A stretch of DNA of 64,000 nucleotides from positions 124,001 to 188,000 of the forward strand of contig BPGT01000004.1 of the NCBI GenBank assembly GCA_026003175.1, given 5' to 3'. Of the stretch, positions 16,636-24,501 are shown piece after piece; the stretch's first letter is position 1, and each line of letters opens with the position of its first letter. The DNA comes from Armatimonadota bacterium (lineage in GTDB: Bacteria > Armatimonadota > HRBIN16). The notes beneath the pieces were generated by a model, which saw only the letters and a program-made list of their open reading frames with translations, was not told where the DNA came from and ran no database searches. The position numbers and the translations under genes are program-made.

Positions 16636-16711
16636 CGCGGGGTGGAGCAGCGGTCAGCTCGCCGGGCTCATAACCCGGAGGTCGAGGGTTCAAATCCCTC
16701 CCCCGCACCCA
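16636..16711 (+). tRNA. tRNA-fMet (CAT)
   Basis: A 76-nt cloverleaf with an encoded CCA end. Acceptor strands are CGCGGGG and CCCCGCA, giving the C1-A72 mismatch of initiator tRNAs. The anticodon stem CCGGG/CCCGG has the three consecutive G-C pairs of initiators, and the loop is CTCATAA. The T arm is GAGGG TTCAAAT CCCTC. The base before CCA is C, not the common A. The 3' part from position 11 onward is duplicated at 24428, so this gene is the attachment site of the island that follows. Confidence 0.93.
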
Positions 16712-16719
16712 AGACCGCT
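16646..16719. repeat. attL, 74-bp direct repeat
   Basis: This sequence covers the tRNA from its D-stem to the end plus 8 bp beyond (through GACCGCT). It is identical over 74 bp to 24428-24501. The left copy keeps a complete tRNA because the island brought its own 3' part. Confidence 0.92.
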
Positions 16720-16804
16720 ATATGTTGTGTGCCTGACCTCTCAAACAGCAAAGACCCCACTACATGTTGTGCCTCCACCCAAAACACAAACGGGAGGCAA
16801 AAAC

Positions 16805-17731
16805 ATGCAGACCGCCGGATTCGTCATCACTGACACAAACCTTCGGGCAGCATTGGAGGTATGGCTGGAGTCACTGCAAGCACGTAAACTGTCCACCCGC
16901 ACCGTGCAAAGCTACCGCGAACACGTCACCCCCTTCGTGGCTTTCCTGCAACAGCAGGGTTGTGCAGACTTTGACGACGTGCAACCCTTCCACATTCGCC
17001 GGTGGCTACTCTACCGCCAGCAGCAAGGCATCAGCACACACACGCTGTTTAATTGCTACCGCAACCCGCGAACATTCTGGAACTGGTGCATCCGTGAAGG
17101 CTTGACTACACACAACCCCTTCGCGAAGGTGGAACCGCCCAAGCGCGAACAGGTGCTTAAACCTGCCCTGACGCCTGAGGAGGTGGAGAAACTGCTGCAG
17201 GCGTGTGAAGGCAAGCACTGGCTGAATCTTCGCGACAGGGCGTTGATTCTGCTGCTGCTGGACACGGGACTGCGCATCCACGAGTGTCACCAGTTGCGTG
17301 TGGGCGACGCCATGCAAAACACGCTGGTCATCAGGGGCAAGGGCGGTAAGCATCGCGTGGTGGTGCTGAGTGCAGAGGTGAGGCTTGCCCTGCACCGCTA
17401 CCTGAAGGCTTATCAAGCACAGCGGGGAGTGAAACTGCAGGCAGACAGCCCGCTGTGGCAGGGGGACAGGGGTACACTCACCTTAGAGGGGCTGAAGGTA
17501 GCGGTGCGCAAGGCAGGCAAGCGTGCAGGCTTGCGGTTAGGTGCGCACCAGCTACGGCGCACCTTCGCCACATGGTCTCTGCGCAACGGCATTACGCTGG
17601 AACACCTGAGGCTTCTCATGGGACACAGCGACCTCAAGACAACGCTGCAATACCTGGCGTTGGTGGAGGACGACCTGAAGGCTGCCCACGAAGCGCATTC
17701 GCCGTTGAATCTTCTCAGGGGACGCAGGTAG
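16805..17731 (+). CDS. int: Tyrosine-type integrase of the island
   Basis: A 308-aa XerC/D-like recombinase. The N-terminal SAM-like DNA-binding domain covers about residues 15-100 and the catalytic domain 120-300. The active-site set is complete: R in TGLRIHE, K in KGGKHR, HQLRR, GHSDLKTT and the nucleophile Y in LQYL. ATG 16805 follows GGGAGG with 8-bp spacing; the frame is open from 16727. It lies 85 bp inside attL and should act at the tRNA-fMet att site. Confidence 0.93.
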   Translation: MQTAGFVITDTNLRAALEVWLESLQARKLSTRTVQSYREHVTPFVAFLQQQGCADFDDVQPFHIRRWLLYRQQQGISTHTLFNCYRNPRTFWNWCIREGLTTHNPFAKVEPPKREQVLKPALTPEEVEKLLQACEGKHWLNLRDRALILLLLDTGLRIHECHQLRVGDAMQNTLVIRGKGGKHRVVVLSAEVRLALHRYLKAYQAQRGVKLQADSPLWQGDRGTLTLEGLKVAVRKAGKRAGLRLGAHQLRRTFATWSLRNGITLEHLRLLMGHSDLKTTLQYLALVEDDLKAAHEAHSPLNLLRGRR

Positions 17732-17736
17732 AGGAG

Positions 17737-17764
17737 GAGGCGGGCGTCACGACGCGCCCGCCTC
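17737..17764. terminator. Hairpin between int and the convergent gene
   Basis: GAGGCGGGCG, an 8-nt loop and CGCCCGCCTC form a 10-bp stem at the convergent stops of the integrase and the minus-strand gene. It could end transcription from both sides. Confidence 0.55.
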
Positions 17765-18337
17765 GCCGTAAAAAGCGAAGACCAGTTCCAACACATAATC
17801 CGTCACGGCGACCCAACCGCCTCGCCCGTCGGGCAAGAGTCCTGCCACTGGTTCATCATCGTCTTCGGACATCTCCCTCAATTCCGCCAGCATTTGACGC
17901 AGGGGAAACTGCGCAATGTAGCGTAGCCACCGCCAGACACGACGGCGCACCCGTGCTGGCGGTTCGCCACGAAGGCGGGCGAACTCGCGGACTGCTTCCT
18001 CCAGCGTGCATCCTCGCGCCGACACAATGGCGCAAACCTGTTCAAAGTCAGCGAACCAGGCGATGCGCGGCGGGCGGTATTCGCGCGTTCCGCAATACGC
18101 CTGAAAGCAAGCCGCACCAGCATCAAGGCTACCCGTGTTTTGGAAAACGCGCAGTGCCATCTCAATCGCAGCCACAACGTCCTTGCCTGGGATGCGCGCG
18201 GACAGGGCGACTTTTCGCCTCAACCACGAGGTAGTCCGGGCTGCGAAGCGACGCGCTTCCTCTGGCGACAAACTTCCCCAGATGAAATCCTCCGCCCTCT
18301 CAATCTGCTCGTAAAATTGCTTTCGTGTGTATTTCAT
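17747..18337 (-). CDS. Island protein of unknown function, divergent from the excisionase
   Basis: A 196-aa basic, arginine-rich, mostly helical protein I do not recognise. A region rich in R and W (GEPPARVRRRVWRWLRY) could bind nucleic acid. In phage satellites this divergent position is held by the master repressor, but no clear HTH is seen. Start 18337 is the more family-like MKYTRKQFYEQ; an in-frame ATG at 18379 would lie exactly at the predicted transcription start and give a leaderless mRNA with 14 more residues. Confidence 0.65.
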   Translation of the reverse strand: MKYTRKQFYEQIERAEDFIWGSLSPEEARRFAARTTSWLRRKVALSARIPGKDVVAAIEMALRVFQNTGSLDAGAACFQAYCGTREYRPPRIAWFADFEQVCAIVSARGCTLEEAVREFARLRGEPPARVRRRVWRWLRYIAQFPLRQMLAELREMSEDDDEPVAGLLPDGRGGWVAVTDYVLELVFAFYGEAGAS

Positions 18338-18385
18338 TCCAGACCTGTGACGTTTCGAAAATGGTCGCAAAAAAGCCATCGCCCC

Positions 18386-18414
18386 ATTGTAACATGAAAG
18401 TGGACTTCGGTCAA
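18386..18414 (-). promoter_or_regulatory. Minus-strand promoter in the divergent control region
   Basis: Read on the minus strand: TTGACC, 17 bp, TACAAT. The spacer contains the small inverted repeat AAGTGGACTT. The plus-strand gene starts 18 bp beyond the -35, so one bound regulator could control both directions. Confidence 0.7.
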
Positions 18415-18431
18415 TGGAGGGAGAACGACCT

Positions 18432-18638
18432 GTGAAGAACCTGCTTTCGTGCGGAGACGTTGCTGAAATGTTGGGCGTGACGCGACAGCGCGTTCACATT
18501 TTGCGCCTGACCGGCAAGCTTCGTGGCACGCGACTACGGTCGGGCTGGGTTTACCGGCGCGATGAGGTGGAACGTTACCAGCAGCAACGCGAGGCGTGGC
18601 TGCGAAAGCGAGGGCGACGCAATGAGAACCGCCGTTGA
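18432..18638 (+). CDS. Excisionase/MerR-like helix-turn-helix protein
   Basis: A 68-aa DNA-binding protein of the excisionase type. The winged HTH is clear: SCGDVAEMLGVTRQRVHILR, then GWVYRRDEVERYQQQRE. GTG 18432 is preferred because GGAGGG sits 8 bp upstream; ATG 18414 would precede that site. It overlaps the primase start by 17 bp. In phage satellites such AlpA-like proteins control excision or activate replication genes. Confidence 0.8.
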   Translation: MKNLLSCGDVAEMLGVTRQRVHILRLTGKLRGTRLRSGWVYRRDEVERYQQQREAWLRKRGRRNENRR

Positions 18639-19635
18639 CGCTGCTACCCAATATGCCTCGTTGGGCTACCGCGTCCTCCCCCTGCACGGCACCCGCGACG
18701 GGCGTTGCACCTGCGGGAAAACAGACTGCCCGTCGCCGGGCAAACATCCGCGAACTGCGCACGGGGTAAAGGACGCCTCCGACGACCCAAACGTTATTCG
18801 GCACTGGTGGTCGCGCTACCCCGACGCGAATGTAGGCATCGCCGTGCCTCCCTGCGTGGTGGTGCTTGACATCGACCGCGGCAAAAGAGGTTTGGACAGC
18901 ATTCGCGGAAAAGCGCTGCCCGATGCCGCGCCATGTTGCCGAACCGGCGGTGGTGGTTGGCACTACTGGTTTCGGTCGCCGGACGGTGTCGCGACGAAGA
19001 ACAGCGCCAACATCATGCGAGGCATTGACATCCGCACCGCCGGCGGCTACGTCGTAGCACCGCCAAGCCGACACCAGACGGGACGGAACTACGAGTGGGA
19101 ACAGCCTCTGGTGCCACCGGACGAACTACCGCCAGCACCGGATTGGTTGGTGCAGCTACTTGCTGCGAAAAGCGAGACGGCAAAAACAATCAAGCAGGCT
19201 GCGGTTGCGTCGTGGGGCGAAGGAACACGGCATGAGACGGCGCTGGCGTTAGCGGGTGTGCTTCGCAAACGAGGCGTGCCCCAACCGGAAGCAGAAGCAG
19301 TCATCACAGAGATTGCTTGCGAAGCGCGTGACCCCGAACTGGAAGACCGGCTTCGCGCTGTGCGGGACACTTACGCGAAGCCACCGGAAGCTGTTGCTGG
19401 TTTCTCGCGTCTCCCGCAGCAGCTGCGCGAGGCTGTGGATGCGCACCTGCGCAACGGAAAAGACCACATGCAGGTGATGACAAAGTTTGTGCCACGTCGG
19501 TTCGCAGAGAAGGTTCTGCACCAGCACCGATTCTACTCGTGCGGTGACCTGCGCACTGGCGACTTCTACCGGTCACCACGAAGACGGTGTGTGGCGCGAA
19601 GACGGCGAAGCGTTTCTCGCCAATCTGCTTCGTGA
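18622..19635 (+). pseudogene. Primase-polymerase/helicase, N-terminal part (frameshift 1)
   Basis: A bifunctional primase-polymerase (PrimPol) domain starts at ATG 18622: zinc-like CTCGKTDCPSPGKHPR, catalytic VVVLDIDRG, and GGGGWHYWF. A helical linker follows. The true reading leaves this frame near 19570 (TACCGG): one extra base changes the continuation, which resumes as HHEDGVWRE in the next frame. The whole gene (18622-21013) would be a PrimPol-SF3 helicase replication protein of about 800 aa, the island's replication initiator. Confidence 0.8.
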
Positions 19636-20512
19636 AGGCAACATCTTGCCCGAAGAGTGGAAGCGCGAAAGCCACGTGCGCGAAATTGTGGCGGACATCC
19701 GCGAGTTGTGCTGGCATGAGGACCCGCTACCGACGCCACCCCCGACACTCATACCGTTTGCCAATGGCGTGTTCGACCTGCACACCGGCGTGCTGCGAGA
19801 CTACACACCCGAAGACGGCTTCACCGCCAAACTGCCCTGGCGGTACGACCCTGACGCGCACAGCGAGTTGCTGGCAGTGCGTCTTGGCGCGTTCCCCGAA
19901 GCGGTTCGGACACACTTCTGGGAGTTCCTGGCTTATTGTCTGTGGCGCGGCTACCCCTTGCAACGCGCGTTCTTCTGGATTGGCAAGGGGAGTGCAGGCA
20001 AGTCGTATCTGCTGAAACTGTTGATGTCAGCATTAGGCGCGGAGAACGTGGCGAACGTGACGCTTCATGATTTAAGCGAGAACCGGTTTGCCGTCGCGCA
20101 GTTGCACCGCAAGCTGCTGGCGTACTCCGGCGAACTTCGCTATGACGACCTGGCACAGACGGACGCGCTGAAGAGTTTGACCGGCGGTGACCTTTTGACT
20201 GCTGACCGGAAGTACCGAGACCCTGTCACATTCCGGAACTATGCGAAGTTACTCTTCACCGGCAACGCCCTACCAATGACACACGACCGGACGGACGCTT
20301 TCTACAGACGCGCCTTCATTGTGCGGTTTGAACACCAGTTCGCCGAAGACCCCAGAATTGAGACGGAACTGGACCTGCTGCCACCGGACGTGAGAAGCAC
20401 GCGAGTTCAGCTGGCTTCTCACACAAGCGGTGGCGGTGCTTCAGCGTCTGTTGGAAAATGGGTTCCAGATGACCGGCGACGCGTCGGTTGCAGAGAAGCG
20501 CAGGATGTATGA
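19487..20512 (+). pseudogene. Primase-helicase, D5N/SF3 helicase part (between frameshifts 1 and 2)
   Basis: The real protein uses this frame from about 19571 to 20392. It contains the SF3 helicase core with Walker A (GKGSAGKSYLL), the B-region (KLLAYSGELRYDD) and motif C (KLLFTGNALP), plus the preceding D5N region (LIPFANGVFDLHTG). The frame is lost near 20393, where one extra base breaks the continuation into EAREFSWLLTQAV. No usable start exists for this fragment alone, so it would not be made as a separate helicase. Confidence 0.78.
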
Positions 20513-20615
20513 ACAGCTGTCCGACCCCATACAGCAGTTCATCGAAGAATGCTGCGAACGGACACGCCGGACGGATGATTATATGTGTTCAAGTACGACT
20601 TCACCGCCCGCTTGA
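20430..20615 (+). pseudogene. Primase-helicase, linker fragment (between frameshifts 2 and 3)
   Basis: This short frame (real part about 20394-20582) continues the helicase as VAVLQRLLENGFQMTGDASV and EKRRMYEQLSDPIQQFIEE, a typical helix bundle after an SF3 domain. It is lost at 20583, where a missing base sends the reading to the next frame. Confidence 0.7.
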
Positions 20616-21013
20616 CCGAGTGGCTACAATCACGCGGAATGAACCAATACCAGGCAAGGCGCCTGAATCAGAGAATGCGGGAACTCGGCTTTGAAGAAAG
20701 TCGCAAGGGACCCGAAAAATACTGGGCATGGATTGGCTTGAAATGGCGCGAAGTTCCAGAAGTTCCAGAAGTTCCAGATTCTATAAACCGCCTTAGACTT
20801 GCTTCTAATGAGGTTGTAAATATTGGAACTTCTGGAACTCTTGGAACTGAACCCCGCCAACCGGCAAGCACACAGGCGAACGGACAGGTGGGCTGGTGTG
20901 GCGTGTGTGGCACGACGACCGTGCACCGCCCCTACCGGCTGATGACCGGCGACTGGCACTGGGAGTGCGTCGTGTGTGGCGGCATCCGTCCGGAGGTGTT
21001 GGACGATGGGTAG
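20585..21013 (+). pseudogene. Primase-helicase, C-terminal winged helix and zinc ribbon (after frameshift 3)
   Basis: The frame begins with FKYDFTARLTEWLQSRG, the winged-helix end of D5-type primases. A repetitive linker EVPEVPEVPD follows, then a four-cysteine zinc ribbon (CGVCG and CVVCG). The GTG at 20585 has no ribosome site. The DNA of the linker carries an inverted repeat (see 20752-20847). The stop overlaps the RNase H start. Confidence 0.7.
20752..20847. repeat. Tandem and inverted GTTCCAGAA repeats
   Basis: GTTCCAGAA is repeated in tandem at 20753-20778. About 50 bp downstream, GGAACTTCTGGAAC at 20825-20838 is its reverse complement, followed by a degenerate further unit to 20847. 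The stretch could fold into a long hairpin inside the primase C-terminal coding part. Confidence 0.65.
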
Positions 21014-21467
21014 GAAGCTGGTGCTTTACACGGACGGCAGTGTGCGCAGTGGTGGGCGTGCTGGCGTCGGTGTGGTGGTGGCTACTGAAGACGGCTACCC
21101 GCTGAAGCGACTGGGCGAACCGCTGACGGAACCGGTGACCGTGAACGAGTGCGAGTATATTGCGCTGTTGACCGGACTGCGCGAAGCGTTGCGTCTGGGC
21201 GCGGACAGCGTAGAGGTGTGTCTGGACAGCGAGCTGGTGCGCCAGCAAGTGCTGGGGAACTGGCAGTGCAACCACGAACACTTGCGCCGACTGCGTGACG
21301 AAGCACGGGCACTGCTGGCGCAGTTTCAATCGTGGACGCTTCAGCGCGTGGAAAGCCGGTTCAATCCTCTGGCGCACACTTACGCCAACATTGCAAGCAC
21401 GCAGAACAGACGACGGTTCTTTTGGCAACACCCGCGAAAACACGGCAAAGGAGGTAAACGAAGCATG
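21006..21467 (+). CDS. RNase H-like protein, 3' end probably frameshifted
   Basis: An RNase HI fold with the first three acidic active-site residues visible: D in YTDGS, E in NECEYIALLTGL and D in CLDSELV. The fourth aspartate position reads NPLAHTYAN, so histidine replaces the usual D. ATG 21006 overlaps the primase stop. The open frame runs on to 21722, but a strong AAAGGAGG and ATG at 21465 mark the next gene in the same frame. One frame over, the end would be DGSFGNTRENTAKEVNEA with an ATGA overlap at 21464-21467, so an indel near 21408 is likely. Confidence 0.7.
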
Positions 21468-21904
21468 ATTATTGAGTTCGCAGAACACAGTCCCCTGCCC
21501 ACTGGCAGCTACCCCGCCCGTGGTGGTGGGCGTGGAACCCAGGAGCGGACAGTACGGCGAACAGCTGCAATTCACCTTAGAGGTGACCAACGGCGAACAC
21601 GCTGGGCGTCGGTTGCGGGCGTGGTGCAACCCGTCCACCAGCACCAACGGCAAAGCTCTACCGCTGGGCGCGTGCCCTGCTGGGCGAAGCCCCCACGAGG
21701 TTGGACACTCGCGAGCTGGTAGGGCAAGCGAGTGTCTGGCGCAGGTCGTGCTGCAGCAGTCCGCCTACCGGCACCGTCTACTCGCGTGTGCAAGACCTGC
21801 TGCCCGCTGATGCGCGTACGACCCCTTCCTGGAAGAAGACTGAACCGGCACAGCGGACTGGTGGGCAGCACCCCACCAGTCCCAAAAGGAGTTTCGGAAC
21901 ATGA
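21465..21904 (+). pseudogene. SSB-like/phage recombination-associated protein, multiply frameshifted
   Basis: From ATG 21465 (AAAGGAGG upstream) the protein reads MIIEFAEHSPLPTGSYPAR, then one frame over VVGVEPRSGQYGEQLQFTLE and RRLRAWCN, then another frame LYRWARALLGEAPTRLDTRE, and ends GTVYSRVQDLLPADART with a stop at 21904. The parts fit a small phage-type single-strand-binding-like (OB-fold) protein. At least two indels, near 21523 and 21655, separate them. The stop overlaps the next start (ATGA), so the original gene length is clear. Confidence 0.55.
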
Positions 21905-22008
21905 ACGCGATTCAACAGACCGGCACTGTGCACCTTCTGCTGGCTGACGGGCGTGCTGGAGCAGGGCAGGCTGTTCTGATTGACAAACCTCAGCGCGATT
22001 TCGTATAG
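21901..22008 (+). CDS. 35-aa small protein in the island operon
   Basis: ATG 21901 overlaps the previous stop and has AAAGGAG upstream. The product (MNAIQQTGTVHLLLADGRAG and then QAVLIDKPQRDFV) is not recognised. The overlap and ribosome site support it as real. Confidence 0.5.
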   Translation: MNAIQQTGTVHLLLADGRAGAGQAVLIDKPQRDFV

Positions 22009-22029
22009 TAAACCAGGAGGTAATCACCT

Positions 22030-22281
22030 ATGACGCTTGAACAGCAAATCCAGATTCTTCAGATGGTCGCCGACGCACAGCCCACCTTCAGTGCGGTGGT
22101 CAACGACGTGGCGATGGTGGTTTCGCGCATCGAGCTTGCCCTTCGCGAGATGGAGGGCAGCAGTGACCCCTTCACTCAGTGGCGTGCAGGCAAATTGCGC
22201 AGACGCTTCGCGGACACACTCGCCGCGTTGGCAGCAGCTGGCGTGTCCGTGCCTCTGCCGGTTGAGGGGGTGACGTTATGA
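22030..22281 (+). CDS. Small island protein, 83 aa
   Basis: An unrecognised, mostly helical acidic/amphipathic protein. ATG 22030 is preceded by AGGAGG, and its stop overlaps the next start as ATGA. Conserved coupling suggests it acts with the coiled-coil product that follows. Confidence 0.65.
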   Translation: MTLEQQIQILQMVADAQPTFSAVVNDVAMVVSRIELALREMEGSSDPFTQWRAGKLRRRFADTLAALAAAGVSVPLPVEGVTL

Positions 22282-22769
22282 ACTACCAGCAAGCGGTAGA
22301 ACGCGCGTCGGCACTCATTGCTTCGTGGCGCGAGCTGCTGCAAGATGAGGCGAGACTGCTTGCGAGTGGTGACCGCGAAACCGTGCTTGCCACAATCACA
22401 CGAAAGCACTCGTTGCCCGCCCAGGTGCACTGTGCCATCCTGCAGGCAGCGGAGGCAGCAGCGCAATGGTACGCGCAGTTGGCGCAAGATGAAGAACAGC
22501 GCATCGCCGAGTTGGACGGCGAGTTGCAGCCTCTGCTTGACGAACTCCGCCAGTTGCAGCAGCGTGTGGACGAACTCGTGCGCGAACGGCGTGGTCGCGA
22601 ACACCGGCTGACCGTCCTGCAGACCTGCCAGCGTTCGGCTGCGCAGTTGACCTCGTTGTCCAGCGACCGTGTGACAACGCCAACCGACGCCGAAGCGTGG
22701 CTTGCCAAACTGCCACCCTGCGAGGAGCCACCACCAGCGGAGCCAGCGAAACGCCTCACGGAGGTTTAG
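22278..22769 (+). CDS. Coiled-coil island protein, 163 aa
   Basis: The middle (about residues 60-120) is a long heptad-like coiled coil (ELDGELQPLLDELRQLQQRV). I do not recognise a family. It is coupled by ATGA to the gene before and ends 8 bp before the GTG of the terminase-like gene. A structural or scaffold role is possible, but only inferred from the coiled coil. Confidence 0.65.
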   Translation: MNYQQAVERASALIASWRELLQDEARLLASGDRETVLATITRKHSLPAQVHCAILQAAEAAAQWYAQLAQDEEQRIAELDGELQPLLDELRQLQQRVDELVRERRGREHRLTVLQTCQRSAAQLTSLSSDRVTTPTDAEAWLAKLPPCEEPPPAEPAKRLTEV

Positions 22770-22777
22770 CGACAAAG

Positions 22778-23590
22778 GTGACACTTAAAAAAGGGCGCGA
22801 TTGGCGTGAGAAGTTTCTGGCTGCCCTCGCGCGTGGTTGCAGCGTCAGCCAGGCAGCCAGGCTGGCAGGCGTTTCCAGACAGCACGCCTACCGGTGCAGG
22901 CAGCGCAGCAATACCTTCGCCCAGCAGTGGGAGGACGCTTGGGAACAGGGCACAGACGCGCTGGAGGACGAAGCCGTGCGCCGCGCACTTGCCGGCAGCG
23001 ACACGTTGCTGATGTTCCTGCTGAAGGCACGACGCCCAGAGAAGTACCGCGACAACGTTCGCGTGGAACACGACACTGGGCAGGCGATGCTTGATGCGTT
23101 GGAAGAAGCAATACGCGTGTCAAGGCTAGCTGCCAATAGTGTGGGTTGTTCGCCTGACCCCTCCGATGACGAAGGTCGAGCGTCATCGTGGGGGGATTTT
23201 TTTCTCCACCACGACTGGTTCCCTGTATGCAGCCTTCGCCGTGTGGTGGTGCACAGCGCGCCCGTGTGCGAACCCCTTGACGACCTGCTGCCGTGCTACC
23301 ATTTTCTGATTGCCAGGTCAGGCGCAGTAGCACGCGGGCTGTTCACCCTGGGTGACAACGCCTCACCAGCAACGAGGACAGGGCTACGCGAGGCACACAA
23401 GGAGATTCAACATCGGCAGCGCAGGCGTGCTGGTGGTGGGCACACAGCCCAACGAACGCCAATGGAACAGTCTGGTGCACCTGTGTCGGCGTGCTGTGTT
23501 CGCGCTACCAGCTGGATGTTCGCGACGTGCAGACACACGGCGAACTGGAACCCGACACGAACGACCTTGTGGGGTGGGGCGACCGCTTGA
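22778..23590 (+). CDS. Small terminase-like HTH protein running into an amidase N-terminal half
   Basis: The first about 115 residues match phage small-terminase-like HTH proteins: GCSVSQAARLAGVSRQHAYR, then ALAGSDTLLMFLLKARRPEKY. From about 23190 the same frame reads VVVHSAPV and CYHFLIARSGAVARGLF, the N-terminal half of an N-acetylmuramoyl-L-alanine amidase (endolysin type). The amidase frame is lost near 23380 and resumes in other frames to 23892, so the apparent fusion may itself reflect a lost stop. GTG 22778 is chosen by homology start; GGAGG is 13 bp upstream. Confidence 0.6.
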   Translation: MTLKKGRDWREKFLAALARGCSVSQAARLAGVSRQHAYRCRQRSNTFAQQWEDAWEQGTDALEDEAVRRALAGSDTLLMFLLKARRPEKYRDNVRVEHDTGQAMLDALEEAIRVSRLAANSVGCSPDPSDDEGRASSWGDFFLHHDWFPVCSLRRVVVHSAPVCEPLDDLLPCYHFLIARSGAVARGLFTLGDNASPATRTGLREAHKEIQHRQRRRAGGGHTAQRTPMEQSGAPVSACCVRATSWMFATCRHTANWNPTRTTLWGGATA

Positions 23591-23892
23591 GGGAAGCCAT
23601 CGCCAGCGCACCGCTGCCAGAGTGTGAACCCGAAGAACCGCCAGCCTACGTCAACGTGTTCGTGGGCGACACGAAGCTGCTGGCGAGGCAGGACGGAGGC
23701 GACCTGTGGGTTCCCCGAGCGCAGTTGCGAAGCAGGTCGGCTTGGCTTCCTGAGTTGCCGATGGAGAAGCACGTCATTTACGGCATGGAGTTGGTTTGCG
23801 TACCTTTGCGGTTGGTGCTGTCATCGCTGCACCGGCACGTTGTGTGGGACACCCGCCTTCGCGCCTTGAAACTGGAACCCCTTGAGGAATAA
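23491..23892 (+). pseudogene. Amidase (endolysin-like), C-terminal part
   Basis: The amidase continues in a third frame after an intermediate piece (NIGSAGVLVVGTQPNERQW, 23412-23470). Here it reads QLDVRDVQTHGELEPDTNDL and GWGDRLREAI, the end of an amidase_2 domain. A C-terminal extension of about 80 residues of unknown role follows. The stop is followed at once by the palindrome array. At least two indels break the gene. Confidence 0.55.
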
Positions 23893-23920
23893 AAAAACCG
23901 CTTGCCGTCCACACCGATGC

Positions 23921-24190
23921 TGTCTTGCGATTGTTGCATCAGGTCGCCGAAATTTCGCCGACCTGATGCAAGTTTTGCAATCCAATTGTCTTGCAATTGT
24001 AGCATGAGGTCGCAAATTTTTGCGACCTGACGCAATTTTTGCAATCCAATTGTCTTGCGATTGTGGCATGAGGTCGGCGATTTCGCCGACCTGATGCAAC
24101 TTTTGCAATCCAGGCCAATCAGAACTGTCTCGCAATTGTTGCATCAGGTTACAAAAATTTGTGACCTGACGCAATTTTTGCAATCTAACT
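23921..24190. repeat. Four tandem palindromic units with covarying stems
   Basis: Four units start with TGTCTTGC (or TGTCTCGC) at 23921, 23987, 24051 and 24126. Each carries a stem based on AGGTCG...CGACCT and ends with GCAA-TTTTTGCAATC-like sequence. The tips differ but stay paired: CCGAAA/TTTCGC, GCAAA/TTTGC, GGCGA/TCGCC and TACAAA/TTTGTG. This is non-coding and AT-richer than its surroundings. Possible roles are a replication origin, a structured RNA, or a packaging or regulatory site. Confidence 0.85.
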
Positions 24191-24196
24191 GGTCGC

Positions 24197-24340
24197 TTGA
24201 CACACTTTGCTAGAGAATGCTAAGATGAAAATGACGGCGCGTAGCCGGAACTACCGCCGTCGTGGCGTCCAGCAGGGGCGGTGCTGAACGCGGTTAGATT
24301 GTAGCACCCACTTTTAACCGCTGTCAAGCCCCCTGTTGAG
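24197..24340 (+). ncRNA. Candidate small RNA (or 20-aa peptide) from a strong promoter at the island's right end
   Basis: TTGACA, 18 bp, TAAGAT at 24197-24226 is one of the best promoters in the window. Only a 20-codon basic frame from ATG 24224 follows. The downstream sequence folds: GGTGCT...AGCACC and GCGGTTA...TAACCGC (24278-24322). A small RNA is the likeliest reading; the peptide is the alternative. Confidence 0.4.
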
Positions 24341-24427
24341 ACCGCCGGATTCCTGAAAATTGTCAGTCTGTGGAACACAACATGTAGTGGTTCACGTTCA
24401 GCGGGCACACAACATATTGTGTTTTGA

Positions 24428-24501
24428 AGCAGCGGTCAGCTCGCCGGGCTCATAACCCGGAGGTCGAGGGTTCAAATCCCTCCCCCGCACCCAAGACCGC
24501 T
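24428..24501. repeat. attR, truncated tRNA-fMet copy
   Basis: Identical over 74 bp to 16646-16719. The first ten bases of the tRNA and its promoter are missing here, so this copy is not functional. It marks the right end of the island. The 190 bp after it contain no supported gene. Confidence 0.9.

Follow-up and report, generated by a model that had tools for sequence, protein, structure and literature searches.

Phage satellites of the PICI, P4-like and PICMI types (PMC10803314) are elements of 7-8 kb integrated at tRNA genes, with an integrase, a primase-helicase and terS and without capsid genes. The island analyzed in this study shares these features, but its host group is not that of the satellites in the literature found (PMC10803314). 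Four tandem palindrome units stand near its right end. Tandem intrinsic (rho-independent) terminators resemble this array in placing a stable stem after a late gene with a U tract on one strand; unlike them, it comprises as many as four near-copies whose long arms are conserved, and a further copy lies within a gene of a phage. Small mobile palindromes such as Rickettsia palindromic elements (RPE; PMC2229807) can likewise be intergenic or sit in frame in a coding gene; the units, however, are 54-56 bp and not 105-146 bp long, stand in tandem, show no chromosomal dispersal and are confined to satellites and one phage-like contig. Integron attC sites have the outer box, internal loop, inner stem and variable tip seen in the units, but no cassettes lie between the units, and an attC array was rejected because neither the own genome nor five relatives have an integron integrase (TIGR02249) that passes its cut-off. 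Neither the array nor the structured RNA next to it is described in the phage-satellite literature found, as far as it was searched (PMC10803314).

The array sits in a 7.8 kb phage-satellite island within the window (the whole stretch of 64,000 nucleotides analyzed). A tRNA-Met gene, the integration target, marks the left end (16636..16711, + strand), and a partial tRNA-Met copy of 77 bp marks the right end (24425..24501, +), 98.7% identical to 16643-16719. On the + strand between them were identified a tyrosine integrase (16727..17731; PF00589, E 4.6e-28), a Prim-Pol with D5_N/DUF5906 helicase (18622..20512), a TerS-like (terminase small subunit) gene of the late module (22772..23125) and a probable amidase/endolysin-like gene (23077..23892; start approximate, weak match to phrog_822), which closes the late module and whose stop codon is about 28 nt upstream of the array. 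Other island genes encode an HTH_17 protein and an RNase H-like protein. The island copy in the window shows partial decay: a frameshift splits the Prim-Pol/helicase, the amidase gene is frameshifted and the TerS-like frame continues into it. The Prim-Pol/helicase homologue at L045 has 829 aa in one frame, and an intact TerS homologue matches phrog_4044 (E 5.5e-24). The integrase with an att duplication at a tRNA, the island's own replication genes (Prim-Pol, D5 helicase) and the lack of any capsid family match among its scanned proteins are as in a PICI-like satellite, which a helper phage would mobilise.

The palindromic motif ACAACATRTWGTG is found at two places at each island end (16716-16771 and 24376-24421), with eight matches in the window against 0.2 expected, and probably represents arm-type sites of the integrase. 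The palindrome units were rejected as such sites, being present only at the right end and different from the motif that marks both ends. The window island (16636-24501) is one member of a modular satellite family of 6-8 kb in one little-studied genus, documented here, with members at tRNA-Met, -Lys, -Thr, -Gly, -Arg and -Leu sites; the replication, late, array and promoter/RNA/att modules are shuffled among the members.

A sequence-only reading of this DNA had reported the four-unit palindrome array, and our analysis confirmed that observation. Direct repeats start at 23920, 23986, 24050 and 24125 (spacing 66, 64 and 75), and the units were placed on the + strand at 23925..23982 (unit 1; cmsearch 74.5 bits), 23991..24046 (unit 2; 78.2 bits), 24055..24110 (unit 3; 79.1 bits) and 24130..24185 (unit 4; also a cmsearch match, with a terminator-like pattern flagged at 24144-24169). 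Each unit is a dyad of about 54-56 bp extending from the outer box TTGCRA/TTGCAA through to the centre, longer than first described, and the approximate consensus is TTGCRATTGTnGCATSAGG-tip-CCTGAYGCAAyTTTTGCAATC. The stem AGGTCG/CGACCT, originally attributed to all four units, is exact in units 1-3; unit 4 has AGGTTA...TGACCT with one T.G. The tip GGCGA/TCGCC belongs to unit 3, and a C.C mismatch was seen in unit 1 (CGCCGAAATTTCGCCG). Near-complete symmetry is confined to the tip, the arms showing recurrent mismatches (A.C, G.G), and stem energies range from -25 to -41 kcal/mol. At a threshold of 20/27 arm matches, the only palindromes in the 64 kb are the four units and one inter-unit dyad, compared with none in each of 10 shuffles of the window.

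Comparison of 12 distinct units at 22 scored pairs revealed 93.6% of the pairs formed (86.0% in shuffles) and 23 double-sided changes (9.2 in shuffles), all but one of which fall in five tip pairs; slid structures failed the test. Homologous arrays with kept stems thus exist, as the sequence-only reading would need, and its covarying tips are borne out. Its further statement that structure, not sequence, is selected was upheld for the tips, which vary in pairs, but not for the arms (20+20 nt), which are 95-100% identical between same-slot arrays while the tips differ and the neighbouring genes are 87-91% identical. Non-Watson-Crick cells comprise seven G.T on the + strand, which fit + RNA only, and seven A.C on the + strand, which fit - RNA only; with this even split the data do not favour RNA over DNA. 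The amidase genes of L043 and L044 are 99.8% identical over their final 400 nt, yet the two have three units and one unit respectively, with unit arms only 33-35/40 alike. Arrays are replaced or lost as whole blocks between islands, and simultaneous two-sided tip changes could come from unit exchange or hairpin-templated repair with no stepwise compensation. With no strand preference and with array turnover, covariation alone is no proof of RNA; that paired tip changes can spread in this way is a warning for tandem palindromes in general. The suggestion of a repeat RNA also found no Rfam support, the array matching no family at the gathering threshold and its low-threshold matches scoring far below gathering scores; a strongly covarying RNA instead adjoins the array at 24225-24345.

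The units were found only in satellites of the own genome and of the congener G004, and in one phage-like contig, with 0, 1, 3 or 4 copies per satellite. In the own genome a second satellite, type B, integrated at tRNA-Lys with a different replication module, has four units; it was seen at three contig-end places, which probably represent fewer real insertions. Its array DNA is 98% identical to that of the window, and the shared right-hand block of 2.4 kb is 90% identical. The G004 satellites L042, L043 and L044 have three, three and one unit, respectively. The remaining unit (L047:8609-8666) occurs in a 34.6 kb G004 phage-like contig (C8), which encodes a large terminase, a tail protein and an O-like initiator; it is in frame inside an open ParB-methyltransferase gene, 5.7 kb from the contig's small-terminase candidate. 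Dispersed copies are present in neither the own nor the congener chromosome, and no other convincing unit was found among 291 genomes of the phylum, where weak matches in G047, G148 and G211 (30-33 bits) were judged to be chance. Scanning IMG/VR and GTDB contigs for the unit pattern yielded 27 loci with best scores of no more than 32 bits, also judged to be chance because the search pattern itself selects arms. Viral-contig relatives of TerS carry no unit, and for neither the amidase nor the ParB-methyltransferase was a viral-contig relative found. Sister islands with homologous TerS and amidase, namely X1 (own genome, tRNA-Leu, L145) and X2 (G003, L146), lack units, and the units are therefore accessory: the array is an accessory tandem hairpin set of one phage-satellite lineage.

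Most genomes of the genus encode a large terminase about 450 aa long (G000:C6:140266-141537 and relatives). It is 31-36% identical to the terminase of C8 and may be part of a prophage or gene transfer agent that has been conserved.

We tentatively favour the reading that the units are terminator-like hairpin barriers that separate the late operon from the promoter that follows, although we hold it at less than even probability. The array lies 28 nt after the amidase stop codon and 11-13 nt before the promoter P+ (window, type B, L042 and L044), and its orientation is identical in all five distinct satellite arrays. In all 11 satellite units, 5-6 of the 10 nucleotides after the stem are T on the + strand, compared with 1-3 on the - strand; the U-rich run begins directly behind the stem and counts 4-5 U in most units. 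This placement and the U-rich + strand tail make a transcription barrier the simplest reading. The + strand of each unit would fold into a hairpin of about 16-18 bp, with a tract of 4-5 U behind it; together the units would end or block late-operon transcription, and the barrier would insulate the side of P+/P-, the structured RNA and the integrase. Tip variation with pairing kept is allowed for a terminator stem, and a unit number of 0-4 is as expected of a dispensable barrier. We infer termination from the observed position, structure, orientation, tip covariation and copy number of the units and from their absence in sister islands. A simple terminator scan flagged unit 4 as well as a dyad at unit 2, in keeping with the barrier, but two is near the 1.0 expected by chance, which counts against it. 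Three further points count against the barrier: the arm identity exceeds the need of a terminator, unless exchange homogenises the arms; the phage-contig unit lies inside an open reading frame and lacks a U tract; and X1 has no barrier between its amidase stop codon, 3-4 nt before the -35 box, and P+.

The arm conservation and the phage-contig unit make a DNA recognition site common to satellites and a phage nearly as likely, a doubtful but serious alternative in which a putative phage or satellite protein binds the dyad and the 1-4 satellite copies attract or titrate it; possibly, barrier units double as such a site. The dyad to be bound has four TTGC boxes with 10 bp spacing within each arm and an AGGT core; arm conservation goes beyond pairing, the lack of strand bias in the mismatches fits a duplex site, and in both genomes the units are confined to satellites and the one ParB-methyltransferase gene. 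Satellites using another helper would then lack the unit; nevertheless, islands with homologous TerS/amidase and with near-identical Prim-Pol are without it, C8 is only a putative helper with a single unit, and a plain binding site needs no palindromic tips of changing sequence. We consider improbable the stronger form of this idea, a new class of hairpin-forming recognition site common to satellites and a specific helper phage and multiplied to outcompete that phage; if true, the presence of the array would mark helper specificity. The in-frame copy in a coding gene, as in Rickettsia palindromic elements (PMC2229807), the presence or absence of units at one site and the CCGCTTG direct repeat flanking the array would also suit a self-spreading RPE/REP-like repeat that entered the satellite lineage and the phage gene and multiplied in tandem. 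This is unlikely, as neither chromosome has copies elsewhere and no transposase is linked; the phage gene has about nine extra residues compared with homologues, so that an insertion of 18 codons is not proved.

All five array-bearing satellites carry TerS and the array lies within the TerS module, as a packaging (pac) site bound by TerS would require, but the TerS proteins of X1 and X2 are 77-80% identical and occur without any unit, and the phage-contig unit is far from its small-terminase candidate; such a site is quite improbable. Least probable by far is a replication origin recognised by the island's primase-helicase. Multiple dyads close to an island end would be in keeping with an origin, and the sequence-only reading had proposed one; module shuffling contradicts it, since L045 in the own genome shares a Prim-Pol block of 2,974 bp (94.7% identical) and has no unit, and the four units of type B accompany an unrelated primase/ATPase module. 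With no co-occurrence of the units and that replication module, the obvious origin reading was ruled out.

The region next to the array is a stronger candidate than the array itself for a new regulatory RNA. P+ (TTGACA-18-TAAGAT; 24197..24226, +) starts 11 nt after unit 4 and is conserved in sister islands, both those that have units and those that lack them. Downstream of it lies a structured RNA region with hairpins P1, P2 and P3 (24225..24345, +; z = -4.9) and a possible GGGG/CCCC pseudoknot, which is overlapped by a convergent promoter P- (TTGACA-18-TACAAT; 24298..24327, -). Fourteen satellites of the genus have the structured region, whether or not they carry palindromes. Across the 14 homologues, 99.6% of the pairing at 19 scored pairs is kept, and double changes number 31 against a shuffle maximum of 15, counts that lean towards structure as the alignment was made by hand to fit it. 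No Rfam family matched the structured RNA, and this strongly covarying RNA with its conserved convergent promoter is previously unreported. The integrase gene is downstream of the structured RNA in type B and L043; in the window island it would be reached only in the circular form. As a guess, the RNA may be an antisense-controlled integrase leader. The P- form TTGAC[AGT]-17/18-TANNNT occurs in 14/14 homologues.
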